Assembly (NCBI RefSeq): GCF_041435015.1
Contig: NZ_CP107989.1
Coordinates: forward strand, 9,672,001 to 9,736,000
Direction: 5' to 3'
Source: Streptomyces canus
Lineage (GTDB): Bacteria > Actinomycetota > Actinomycetes > Streptomycetales > Streptomycetaceae
Length of the DNA stretch: 64,000 nt
How positions within the stretch are numbered: the first letter of the stretch is position 1; each line of letters starts with the position of its first letter. The notes under the pieces were generated by a model, which saw nothing but the letters and a program-made list of their open reading frames with translations, was not told where the DNA came from and did no database searches. Position numbers and translations under genes: made by a program. Positions 7,310 through 33,211 of the stretch are shown here, piece by piece.

Positions 7310-7503
7310 ATGACCCTCGACATGAGCCGCGGCGCGGCGTTCGTCAGTTGGCCGCTCTGCGGCGCGACCACGCGGTCCTGGGGCCTCGGCCCGCAGTGCG
7401 CGCGCCCGCGGCCTCCGCGACATCCGATGGGCGTGCTGTCTCGCCTGCTTCCGTTGGTGCGGCGTCAGTTGCTGCCGCACGCCGCTGTCGTAGTGATAGG
7501 ACG

Positions 7504-29764: not shown

Positions 29765-32362
29765 TCAAGGCAGGATCTCGACGTACCCGTCGGTTCCGTG
29801 CACGCGGATCCGCTGTCCGTCCCGGATCCGGCGGGTGGCCTGCTCCACGCCCACGACGGCCGGCAAGCCGTACTCGCGGGCGATCACCGCGCCATGGGTC
29901 ATCAGACCGCCCACCTCCGTCACCAGGCCCGCGATGCCCACGAACAGCGGCGACCAGCTGGGATCCGTGAAGGTCGTGACCAGGATGTCGCCCTCTTCGA
30001 GCTCGGCCTCCGCGATGTCGAGGATGACGCGGGCCCGTCCCTCGATGGTCCCGGTGGAGACCGGCAGGCCGACCAGGGCGCCGTCCGGCACGTCGTCGCG
30101 TCGGTACGCCCCGTTGAGAGCCTCGCCGTCCGAGGTGAGGACCCGGGGAGGTGTCAGCGCCTGGTACGAGCGGAACGCGTCCTTGCGTCGCTGGACGAGC
30201 CGGTCGTCGACCTGCTTCGAGCGCACGACGTCGTGGAACTCCTGGAAGGTGAGGTAGAAGACGTCCTCCTTCCCGGCCAGCACGCCCGCCCGAACGAGGC
30301 GCTCGGCCTCCGCCAACAGGGCCTGCTTGTAGACGAAGTAGCGGCTGATGATGCCGTACTTCGGGTACTCCCGGTATCCGATGAAGGTGCGGACCCGCTC
30401 GATCATGCCCTTGGTCTCGTCGGCCTTCCGTTCCCCGTCCGGCAGGGTCCGCAGGCGTGACAGCACCTCCTGTTCCTTCTGCTGCGCCCTCCGGCGCCCT
30501 TGCTCGAAACGCCGCTGGGCCGCGCCCTGTTCGAAGTTCCTGACGTTGTCGAGGATCACGGGAACAAGGGTGCTGGGGCGCTCGCGCCAACGCGGCCTCG
30601 TGATGTCGATCTCGCCGACGCAGCGCATGCCGTACCGGTCGAGGTAGTCCTCGATGGCATCGCGCGCTTCGGTCCCGCCCGGGAGCTTCACCAGCTCGTC
30701 GAGGAAGCCGTCGTCCTCGACGCCCTCGAGGAACCCGACCACCTCCGGATGCGGGCGGATCGCGTCCGCGACGTCGAGCAGCGCGAGTCCCATCTCGGAC
30801 GTGACGTTGCCGGGGGCGGACAGGGTCAGCGTGTCAGCCGCGTTCTTCTCGCCGAGCCACTCCTCCAGCTTCTCGTTGAGCCACCATGTGGCCTCCATTC
30901 CCGCCATGATCACCTGGAGGTTCAGCGGATCACCGAGGACTCGTTTGTGCTCCTCGAAGGCCTCCAGCAGGAAGTCGAACAGCGCCGGTCCGGTCTTTGC
31001 CCGGGCGTCGCGCCGGAGGGCGGCGACGGACGCCCGGCTGCGCTCGATCAGCCCGGTGACGACGGCCGGATCGGTCGCGATCGGAGCAGGCGGGGAGGCG
31101 GCCGACGGCCTGCCGGGAGGCGCGTCCGGAAGCGACGGGACGAAATCCTCGCGGTCGAGGACGGTCTCCAGCGCGTCCCGGACCAACGGGTCGCCCTTTC
31201 CCATGAGGTCCAGCAGGCCCGTGCGGCTCGCGGGCGATGCCAGGCGCCGGGTGACGTCGACGAACAGCCTCCCGCCGGCCTCGTGCATCGGCACCATGGC
31301 CGTCAGCCGCCACAGGGAGAGGCCCAGGGGCTTCATGGCGTCGGTCATCATCTGCTGATGACCGACGGAGACATAGACGTGGTTCTCCTGGTCGTCGCTC
31401 TCGGGGACGGGGAACAGCGTGGTGATCGGCCTGCTCTGCACGATGTGGAAAGCGTCGTCGACCAGGCACCATTCGATGTCCTGCGGGCGGCCGAAGTGCG
31501 CTTCGATCCGCCTCCCGAGCTGCACGAGCCGGACCGCCTGCGCGTCCGTCAGCGCCGGCTGCTCCTGTCGCCGCGAGTCGATCTCCACCTCCTGTGTGCC
31601 GCCGGACGGCAGGGCGTGAACGGCACGCTGTTTGGCGGAGATCGTCCCGGCCACGACTTCGCCGTGCCGCACCTTGAAGACGTCCGGGTTCACCAGACCG
31701 GAGACCAGGGCCTCGCCGAGGCCGAAACCGGCGTCCACGGTGGCGACCGTCCGGTCGCCCGTGACGGGGTCGGCCGTGAACAGGATGCCGGACGCCTGCG
31801 GGAAGACCATCTGCTGCACGACCACGGCCATGTGGACCGTACGGTGGTCGATGCCGTTGCGTCGGCGGTAGATCACGGCCCGTTCGCTGAACAGTGAGGC
31901 CCAGCACCGGCTGATGTGCCGAAGGATCGCCGTCGGTCCCACCACGTTCAGGTACGTGTCCTGCTGGCCCGCGAAGGAGGCCGTCGGCAGGTCCTCCGCC
32001 GTGGCGCTGGATCGCACGGCGTAGGCGGCCTGCTCATCGGACCGGGCGAGCGCCCGAGTGATCGCCGCCGCGAGGTCGCCCGGGACGGCGATCTCTTCGA
32101 TGGCCCGGCGGATCTCCGCGCTGAGTGTGCGGATCGCCTCCTGATCGTCCGCGTTCACGCGCGACAGCTGTTCGAGTTGATCGTCGATCGACGGCGTTTG
32201 CGCCACGACCCGCCGGAAGGCGTCCGTCGTCACGCAGAAGCCCGCCGGTACGCGGATGCCGTCGATCCGGGACAGGGCGCCCAGGTGCGCGCCCTTGCCG
32301 CCGACGACGCCGATCTGACTCTCGTCAATCTCTTGAAGATCCAGCACGTACCGCTCGGTCAT
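29765..32362 (-). CDS. rph: Rifampin phosphotransferase
   Basis: 865 residues, the length of characterised Rph enzymes. It has an N-terminal ATP-grasp domain (VVGGKGAHLG, YAVRSSATAEDLPTASFAGQQDTYLN, IEWCLVDDAFHIVQSRPI), a central rifampin-binding helical domain starting near VSVGHQQMMTDAMKPLGLS, and a C-terminal swivelling His domain with GGLMTHGAVIAREYGLPAVV, His823 being the phospho-carrier. The reaction is rifampin + ATP + water to 21-phosphorifampin + AMP + Pi. The central domain and the HQQMMTDAMKPLG motif separate it from ordinary PEP synthase. It is preceded by a 19-bp repeat matching the rifamycin-associated element, so it is expected to be rifamycin-inducible. Start ATG 32362; an in-frame GTG-type extension to 32413 lacks a ribosome site. 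Confidence 0.95.
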   Translation of the reverse strand: MTERYVLDLQEIDESQIGVVGGKGAHLGALSRIDGIRVPAGFCVTTDAFRRVVAQTPSIDDQLEQLSRVNADDQEAIRTLSAEIRRAIEEIAVPGDLAAAITRALARSDEQAAYAVRSSATAEDLPTASFAGQQDTYLNVVGPTAILRHISRCWASLFSERAVIYRRRNGIDHRTVHMAVVVQQMVFPQASGILFTADPVTGDRTVATVDAGFGLGEALVSGLVNPDVFKVRHGEVVAGTISAKQRAVHALPSGGTQEVEIDSRRQEQPALTDAQAVRLVQLGRRIEAHFGRPQDIEWCLVDDAFHIVQSRPITTLFPVPESDDQENHVYVSVGHQQMMTDAMKPLGLSLWRLTAMVPMHEAGGRLFVDVTRRLASPASRTGLLDLMGKGDPLVRDALETVLDREDFVPSLPDAPPGRPSAASPPAPIATDPAVVTGLIERSRASVAALRRDARAKTGPALFDFLLEAFEEHKRVLGDPLNLQVIMAGMEATWWLNEKLEEWLGEKNAADTLTLSAPGNVTSEMGLALLDVADAIRPHPEVVGFLEGVEDDGFLDELVKLPGGTEARDAIEDYLDRYGMRCVGEIDITRPRWRERPSTLVPVILDNVRNFEQGAAQRRFEQGRRRAQQKEQEVLSRLRTLPDGERKADETKGMIERVRTFIGYREYPKYGIISRYFVYKQALLAEAERLVRAGVLAGKEDVFYLTFQEFHDVVRSKQVDDRLVQRRKDAFRSYQALTPPRVLTSDGEALNGAYRRDDVPDGALVGLPVSTGTIEGRARVILDIAEAELEEGDILVTTFTDPSWSPLFVGIAGLVTEVGGLMTHGAVIAREYGLPAVVGVEQATRRIRDGQRIRVHGTDGYVEILP

Positions 32363-32470
32363 CGCAGTACCGTCCCCGGTTGCGTTCCCCGTCGACGAGT
32401 CGGTCGAGAACAAGTCGTTTCCCCATCTCCGCAGGTTGTGGCCTCGGCCGACGATTGTGCGCGGTGACCC

Positions 32471-32489
32471 GGGTCTTGCCGCAAGCCCC
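32471..32489 (-). promoter_or_regulatory. Rifamycin-associated element (RAE) upstream of rph
   Basis: GGGTCTTGCCGCAAGCCCC reads, on the rph strand, as GGGGCTTGCGGCAAGACCC: an inverted repeat (CTTGC-G-GCAAG) that differs at one base from the RAE consensus as I recall it. RAEs lie upstream of rifamycin-inactivating genes in actinobacteria and are needed for rifamycin induction. It sits 108 nt upstream of the rph start. A TATAGC hexamer lies just beyond it on the same strand. Confidence 0.85.
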
Positions 32490-32512
32490 CCTGCGCGCTA
32501 TAACTTGAGAGT

Positions 32513-32536
32513 GGCAAGGAGAGTTCTCTCCTTGCC
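32513..32536. terminator. 11-bp inverted repeat upstream of the RAE
   Basis: GGCAAGGAGAG and CTCTCCTTGCC are exact complements with 2 nt between, followed on the plus strand by TTTGCCTTTTG. With so short a loop it may be a dyad operator rather than a hairpin. It lies between rph and the MarR gene that starts at 32711, so either may be controlled. The remaining gap (32537-32710) holds nothing recognisable. Confidence 0.45.
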
Positions 32537-32710
32537 TTTGCCTTTTGCCGTCCGCTGGGATTCACACGATCTCGCGAAGCGTCCAGGCCGAGCCGCCTGA
32601 TGTGTTCGCCGCGAGTGGCGCTCGGGTCGGGTCGAGGAGTGATCATGTGCTTGCTCGGCGACTGATCGGGTACCGCGTTTGAATGAGGGTGGTATCTGCA
32701 TGGCCAGGCG

Positions 32711-33211
32711 ATGACTGAAAGCGATGCGTGTGTGACTCGTCTCAGTGGCTCGGGTGATGACCCGCTCTCCGTCGCATGGGAGATCGCCGATGCCGTGGAC
32801 GGTCTCGCGAACGTGTGGTCGGTGGCCGCTCAGGGGGCGAGTCTGAGGTTGTCGCCGCACCAACTGAGAGCCCTTCGGGTCCTGGAGTCGGAACCGGGGC
32901 TCAATCTCACCACTCTGGCGGAGAGCATGGACATAGGGCCGCCGACTGCCAGTCGGTTGTGCGACCGGCTGGAGGCGGCCGGCCTGCTGGAGCGGCTGCT
33001 GCATCCGCACAGGCGACGTGAGGTGCAGCTCGTTCTCACGGGGCGTGGCCGGCAGATCCTGAACGAAGTCGCCGCGCGCAGATCTCAGGCGCTTGCCGTG
33101 GTCCTCGCGGCCATGGAGCCCGGCGAGCGGGCGGCGCTGGGCGGCGGCCTGCGGGCTTTCCTGACCGCGCAGGGCGATACCGGCACGCCGAGCGACGACC
33201 CCGAGCGCTGA
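32711..33211 (+). CDS. MarR-family regulator (first of two paralogues)
   Basis: 166 residues. The winged HTH core is LRALRVLESEPGLNLTTLAES, PPTASRLCDRLEAAGLLERL and RRREVQLVLTGRGRQIL. It is clearly paralogous to the MarR gene at 39709 (shared LNLxTLAES, TASRLCDRL and GRxxL blocks). The family usually represses a neighbouring gene and is released by a ligand or oxidation. Directly downstream and convergent is a decayed SpoIIE phosphatase; the other copy is paired with an intact one. The ribosome site is weak (AGG 2 nt before the ATG). Confidence 0.88.
   Translation: MTESDACVTRLSGSGDDPLSVAWEIADAVDGLANVWSVAAQGASLRLSPHQLRALRVLESEPGLNLTTLAESMDIGPPTASRLCDRLEAAGLLERLLHPHRRREVQLVLTGRGRQILNEVAARRSQALAVVLAAMEPGERAALGGGLRAFLTAQGDTGTPSDDPER

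Follow-up and report, generated by a model that had tools for sequence, protein, structure and literature searches.

A rifamycin phosphotransferase gene of Streptomyces canus and the rifamycin-associated element before it, a putative shared -35 region of two divergent promoters

We analyzed a 64,000-nucleotide stretch of Streptomyces canus DNA (the window) carrying rph, a gene whose 865-aa product is, judged by its sequence, a rifamycin phosphotransferase. The 19-mer at 32471-32489, upstream of this gene, is on motif and conservation a true rifamycin-associated element (RAE), and rph with its RAE is a new member of an already known pairing. From the comparison of many loci, the RAE appears to be the core of a larger bidirectional element. 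In our best explanation, which we hold with about equal confidence and doubt, the RAE is the shared -35 region of two divergent promoters and also the site of the rifamycin-responsive step. By analogy with published work on other RAE genes, rph would be inducible by rifamycin.

The rph gene, its product and the RAE

29765..32362, minus strand: rph, rifamycin-inactivating phosphotransferase, 865 aa (NF041857, Pfam, phmmer)
32471..32489, minus strand: RAE, 19-bp palindrome GGGGCTTGCGGCAAGACCC (motif match, genome scan, conservation at orthologues)
32711-33211, plus strand: MarR-family gene in the window, divergent from rph

The rph open reading frame starts with ATG and encodes 865 aa; a mechanical list of reading frames had begun it at an upstream TTG, giving 882 aa. 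The preliminary description had credited the product with the full Rph architecture and with His823 as phospho-carrier, and both claims were borne out. The protein scored 1644 bits against NF041857, the NCBIfam equivalog for rifamycin-inactivating phosphotransferases (cut-off 999), which was its highest-scoring family, and Pfam placed PPDK_N at residues 19-316 and PEP-utilizers at residues 788-859. In phmmer, the best solved relatives were the Listeria RPH entries 5HV1, 5FBS and 5HV2 (1070-1075 bits, residues 3-864). The alignment with Listeria RPH (5HV1, 5FBS) runs end to end and covers the central rifampin-binding region; the ATP-grasp domain, this central region and the C-terminal swivel His domain are all present, and His823 aligns with His825 of the Listeria enzyme. 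Following the residue numbering and functional list in the excerpted text of PMC4844700, Lys22, Gln336/337, Val368, Thr523, Arg666, Glu667, Lys670 and His825 are identical in the alignment. The two enzymes thus share full length, domain order, catalytic His and the Arg-Glu plus Lys motif, as well as the QQ pair and the Thr near the phosphate, residues again as given in that excerpt. They differ at Tyr351, which aligns with Trp in the rph product; replacing Tyr351 by Phe in the Listeria enzyme is reported in the same excerpt to have little effect (PMC4844700). The allele-level Rph model NF000283 gave 1486 bits, below the required 1700.

An ordinary PEP synthase relative preceded by a chance palindrome would also have ATP-grasp and swivel domains, which are common to the rph product and PEP synthases, and the protein passed all three PRK06241 models that bear the name phosphoenolpyruvate synthase (NF004877, NF004879 and NF004878). 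However, it failed the model for true PEP synthases (TIGR01418, 397 of the required 740 bits) and NF041857 tops its scores. Its best matches are therefore not PEP synthases without a rifampin domain, and it matched the solved RPH structures end to end, central region included, although those PDB chains are also named phosphoenolpyruvate synthase.

On the coding strand, GGGGCTTGCGGCAAGACCC lies at 32489-32471, 108 nt 5' of the rph ATG, exactly where a 19-bp inverted repeat had been noticed, and it matches the GGGNCTTGCNGCAAGNCCC palindrome exactly. Its single deviation from the RAE consensus, an A for G at position 16, is ordinary, with A in 53/133 of the loci compared below. When the window was scanned with up to 3 mismatches, only the RAE site matched, on both its strands, and shuffled sequences averaged 0.02 matches. 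Exact GGGNCTTGCNGCAAGNCCC occurs at only three places in the 10.7-Mb genome, from which the backward control pattern is absent. When 2 mismatches were tolerated, the RAE pattern was found at 4 places versus 19 for the backward control, so that only exact copies are telling. The three exact copies precede rph, a rox-type monooxygenase gene (NF033145, 919 bits, cut-off 800) and helR (NF041254, 1273 bits, cut-off 750); in these positions, as in being a full 19-bp palindrome, the element matches the known actinobacterial RAE. A genome-wide search for a rifamycin cluster yielded one PF00797 gene and no ansamycin-type NCBIfam label, a weak negative since the surroundings were listed as open reading frames only. 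The genome has one rpoB match, and we take the sequence of its rifamycin site to be ordinary.

The exact RAE was present in 126/150 genomes of the genus sample and in 158/394 genomes of the class sample, which we took to be Streptomyces and Actinomycetes, respectively; the backward control was present in 3 genomes of each. A protein search of the 150 genus genomes recovered 48 full-length Rph proteins with at least 73% identity (genome G000 included) and three more that were partial or split. These three comprised an Rph match in two pieces inside one open frame (G066), a match covering residues 1-618 only (G075) and a match in two pieces with a TGA within one of them (G032). Fifty rph loci, namely the 48 full-length ones plus G066 and G075 but not G032, were examined for an RAE within 700 nt upstream of the gene: it was exact in 39/50 and had one mismatch in 10/50, and a single locus (L038) lacked an RAE within 3 mismatches. 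Contrary to what would be expected if the 19-mer were not conserved upstream of orthologues, an RAE was thus present at 49/50 rph loci. This conservation, the NF041857 score and the RPH alignment contradict a PEP synthase with a chance palindrome, a reading that we regard as barely conceivable. At G000:C1:1389321-1392235, genome G000 also has a 376-aa open frame that contains a second PPDK_N-type region; farther along, a separate open frame shows a PEP-utiliser-type match to Rph.

Promoter signatures and a hairpin around the RAE

32479..32484, minus strand: predicted gene-ward -35, TTGCGG, within the RAE (19 bp to NANNNT in 131/133 loci)
32454..32459, minus strand: predicted gene-ward -10, CACAAT (CANAAT-like; C at the first position in 126/133)
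32476..32481, plus strand: predicted antisense (divergent) -35, TTGCCG, within the RAE (from sequence)
32501..32506, plus strand: predicted antisense -10, TAACTT (TANNNT at the exact spacing in 131/133 loci)
32513..32536, plus strand: terminator-like hairpin in the antisense direction (10-pair stem; starts exactly at the predicted antisense +1)
32537..32546, plus strand: U-rich tail TTTGCCTTTT after the hairpin (terminator-like call)

The flanks of the RAE were compared in a set of 151 loci, in which tblastn searches with Rph, Rox and HelR fixed the gene and its orientation and promoter features played no part. Thirteen loci remained unassigned; the other 138 sites were reduced to 135 without duplicates (rph 56, helR 51, rox 28) and, after removal of two with short flanks, to 133, all from the window's class. 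Many of these 133 loci were found via the RAE itself, but their flanks were unselected. The antisense strand has TANNNT at a distance of 19 bp from TTGCNG in 131/133 loci, and at any other spacing from 8 to 39 bp in 0 to 3. The gene-ward strand likewise has TTGCNG, 19 bp and NANNNT in 131/133 loci, the last mostly as CANAAT; the looser NANNNT is also met at a gene-ward spacing of 22 in 57/133 and at an antisense spacing of 25 in 82/133. The predicted antisense +1 is G in 132/133 loci and +2 is G in 129/133. At the sequence level, it is this comparison that establishes both promoter signatures, their exact spacing and the set of genes they precede. A sense -10 at TATAGC, in the same place, was considered and rejected: it is well conserved, but its sixth base is C in 132/133 loci, and the loci seen with a disrupted TATA still keep the antisense TANNNT. 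A spacer of 19 bp is long for the primary sigma factor. A consensus promoter scanner, which needs a spacer of 16-18 bp, called no promoter at the window RAE or at the Stenotrophomonas locus L235 described below.

The composite pattern was found in 153/388 class genomes, a draw slightly different from that of the 394-genome RAE scan, and in no viral contig. As an independent check, we scanned GTDB contigs for the pattern; at least 119 stretches were obtained, of which 80 loci (81 sites) were used. Among the matches listed, 68/70 actinobacterial sites had both -10s at exactly 19 bp, where the better-fitting orientation, which favours a match, was taken for the 2/70 sites at which no gene was found. 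In the two failing sites, L174 and L233, the spacer seems to have changed by one base. Likewise among the matches listed, 68/70 actinobacterial sites precede rox (27), helR (26), rph (6), rgt (5) or arr (4); the rgt query (L091) was Rgt-like with 537 bits, under the Rgt cut-off of 800, and the arr query (L126) was Arr with 205 bits (cut-off 130).

Twelve of the loci left unassigned in the comparative set have an RAE, and by the rule of our script both -10s are present in 10 of them and absent in L147 and L162. By eye, L074, L076, L091, L141 and L145 look like rifamycin glycosyltransferase loci; L126 is Arr, L092 is helR with a longer leader, L137 starts like rox and L106 is ambiguous. At L142 (G201:C34), an RAE at positions 7407-7425 of the contig, with both -10s, precedes a fragment of a DrrA-like ABC ATPase gene and no known rifamycin enzyme; the ATPase is possibly a further member of the regulon. 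Separately, at the RAEs of G339:C138:50189-50241 and G348:C525:28865-28917 the composite pattern fits either orientation.

The hairpin at 32513-32536 folds with -18.1 kcal/mol (z -3.9); as a terminator it is weak when taken alone, with shuffles of the region giving 0.5 such calls. Within the genus, a strong stem was found in 65/73 loci, versus 12.4 in shuffles (max 18) and 60.1 when arms were swapped between loci (max 65). Because the maximum for swapped arms equals the count for a locus's own arms, these genus loci give no evidence that the arms change together. Among the other genera of the class, a strong stem was present in 20/60 loci, versus 6.5 for arm swaps (max 11) and 4.7 for shuffles (max 6), which indicates that here the arms do change together. 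The hairpin is not universal, as most loci from other genera (all but these 20/60) have no strong stem. On the antisense strand, 4.9 of the 8 bases after the stem are T in the 85 strong-stem loci; for the sense side, over all 133 loci, the figure is 2.5 of 8. An Rfam search with the hairpin gave no match up to E = 1.

Part of this layout has a counterpart in Mycobacterium smegmatis, where, according to the excerpt of PMC10719064, the -35 of the mapped helD promoter P2 overlaps the RAE; the predicted gene-ward promoter agrees with this P2. The same excerpt describes two sense promoters for helD and no antisense one. More generally, the portions of published RAE accounts available to us (PMC12802891, PMC10719064, PMC8655204) place the element in Actinobacteria and mention no antisense promoter. 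Our literature search found no antisense promoter at an RAE in the texts it reached; the original RAE paper and two 2022 HelR papers may describe flanking features. Compared with the known actinobacterial RAE, the difference is thus that here the element is the centre of two divergent promoter signatures and a hairpin. The pairing of gene and RAE is already known; the literature searched yielded no bidirectional layout in which a hairpin stands at the start of an antisense promoter.

Stenotrophomonas arr loci and other non-actinobacterial sites

Eleven sites among the matches listed in the GTDB scan were non-actinobacterial by record title, one being a MAG titled just "bacterium". Three of the 11 had both -10s, two from Stenotrophomonas maltophilia and one from a Chloroflexi MAG, and at 9/11 sites no gene was found, so that the better-fitting orientation, which favours a match, was taken. 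The Chloroflexi MAG record (L237) contains rph with an RAE, its Rph being 71% identical to that of the window; it may represent misbinned actinobacterial DNA.

A protein search detected Arr (Pfam Arr-ms) in 33/81 Stenotrophomonas genomes. The arr loci, found by protein and not by motif, were read in 30 cases, those of G576, G597 and G589 being left out. All 30, with 24 distinct sequences among them, carry an exact RAE with invariant arms and a variable centre, and in all 30 an antisense TA(A/C)TCT and a gene-ward TAGACT stand at 19 bp each. A stem begins no more than 1 nt from the predicted antisense +1 in 30/30 (stem score at least 7 in 29), and the 8 bases after it include 5 or more T in 30/30. 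At L235, for example, the hairpin is GGAGGCGC-AGC-GCGCCTCC, then six T. L235, L231 and L291-L320 are cases of an RAE with full flanks and a terminator-like hairpin before arr in the Gram-negative Stenotrophomonas. The composite pattern occurred in 2/369 gammaproteobacterial genomes, both of which are also in the Stenotrophomonas sample, and in none of the 369 beyond that sample. This is a second difference from the known actinobacterial RAE: the element also precedes arr in Stenotrophomonas. The literature texts searched contained no RAE in this genus, with the same reservation for the RAE and HelR papers named above.

A proposed mechanism and its rivals

We propose that rph would be driven from a divergent promoter centred on the RAE, which would give the -35 (TTGCNG) to two mutually exclusive promoters. 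The gene-ward one would have a 19-bp spacer and a CANAAT box, with C in place of the consensus T. The antisense one, also with a 19-bp spacer and nearer to consensus with its TANNNT, would start with GG at the base of the terminator-like hairpin, and its RNA would end there after about 30 nt. Without rifamycin, polymerase would idle on the terminated antisense promoter and rph would stay low; with rifamycin, the gene-ward promoter would win, and the Rph produced would phosphorylate rifamycins with ATP (the Listeria enzyme does so at C21). We infer three points: activity of the antisense promoter, termination at the hairpin and switching of the element with rifamycin.

As the whole mechanism, plain competition of two promoters that exclude each other is rejected by a steady-state model, in which induction never exceeded 1-fold over 200,000 parameter sets; a toy model of convergent promoters does induce. 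What reads rifamycin would therefore be either a factor on the RAE arms or a polymerase route other than exclusion. We favour a putative regulator bound to the RAE arms, because the GGG...CCC ends are kept though a -35 needs none of them and because promoter competition alone fails in the kinetic model. In this genome, rox and helR are preceded by the same element as rph. The search for a candidate regulator of the RAE found none: the neighbouring MarR gene was rejected as a general one, since a MarR gene lies within about 1.5 kb on each side of just 3/50 rph loci, the window's own included.

The scarcity of MarR genes beside rph also speaks for an unlikely but serious alternative, that RNA polymerase itself is the sensor and no dedicated regulator exists: its high traffic on the terminated antisense promoter would sample rifamycin, and arrest would free the gene-ward promoter. 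The module is intact on a single gene in another phylum (Stenotrophomonas arr), and we know of no regulator common to the RAE loci of Actinobacteria and Stenotrophomonas. The elements of this logic, a stronger antisense and a weaker sense promoter, are those of the Bacillus subtilis helD/pps alarm, in which polymerase is the sensor and two convergent promoters have starts 39 bp apart (PMC12802891). In both systems a sense and an antisense promoter, the antisense one stronger (here by prediction), precede rifamycin-defence genes. In B. subtilis, however, the promoters converge, whereas the predicted promoters at the window RAE diverge, overlap and share a -35 region, so that the convergent two-promoter layout is absent there. 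Moreover, a B. subtilis deletion that made the promoters mutually exclusive abolished induction (PMC12802891), the exclusive model gives no induction while the toy convergent one does, and the RAE arms are conserved beyond any -35. An extension of this alternative, which we put forward as a speculation a little more doubtful still, is that the RAE-centred element works as a portable rifamycin sensor, complete in itself, with polymerase idling on the terminated antisense promoter as the detector and no dedicated factor; the one-gene module would then be intact in both Actinobacteria and Stenotrophomonas because polymerase itself detects the drug.

At the other extreme, the RAE could be the operator of a transcription factor, the conserved outer bases belonging to it or to a single sense promoter, without a working antisense promoter. 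This fits the published view, in the excerpts of PMC12802891 and PMC10719064, of a palindrome possibly bound by a factor and overlapping a sense promoter, and the report that deleting half of the RAE abolishes helD induction (excerpt of PMC10719064). Yet the bases that do not vary on the antisense strand coincide with the three hallmark positions of a -10, at a spacing that suits polymerase and with GG at a canonical +1 beyond them. The tail after strong hairpins, moreover, is rich in T on the antisense strand (4.9/8 in 85 loci versus 2.5/8 on the sense side in 133), as it is in the 30 arr loci of Stenotrophomonas (5 or more of 8 in each). An operator predicts none of these, and we therefore judge an operator alone improbable, preferring an RAE that combines a shared -35 region with the rifamycin-responsive step.

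In the available part of a 2026 paper (PMC12802891), rifamycin sensing by the RAE is described as an unsolved question. The layout described here names exact bases, namely a predicted antisense start, which lies 24 nt upstream of the RAE, with its -10 and the hairpin that begins there, as well as a predicted gene-ward -10 that departs from consensus in a conserved way. The Stenotrophomonas arr loci extend the RAE to a Gram-negative genus, and genes of rifamycin defence are preceded by this design in bacteria as distant as Actinobacteria and Stenotrophomonas. The occurrence of the element in more than one phylum limits what the sensor can be.
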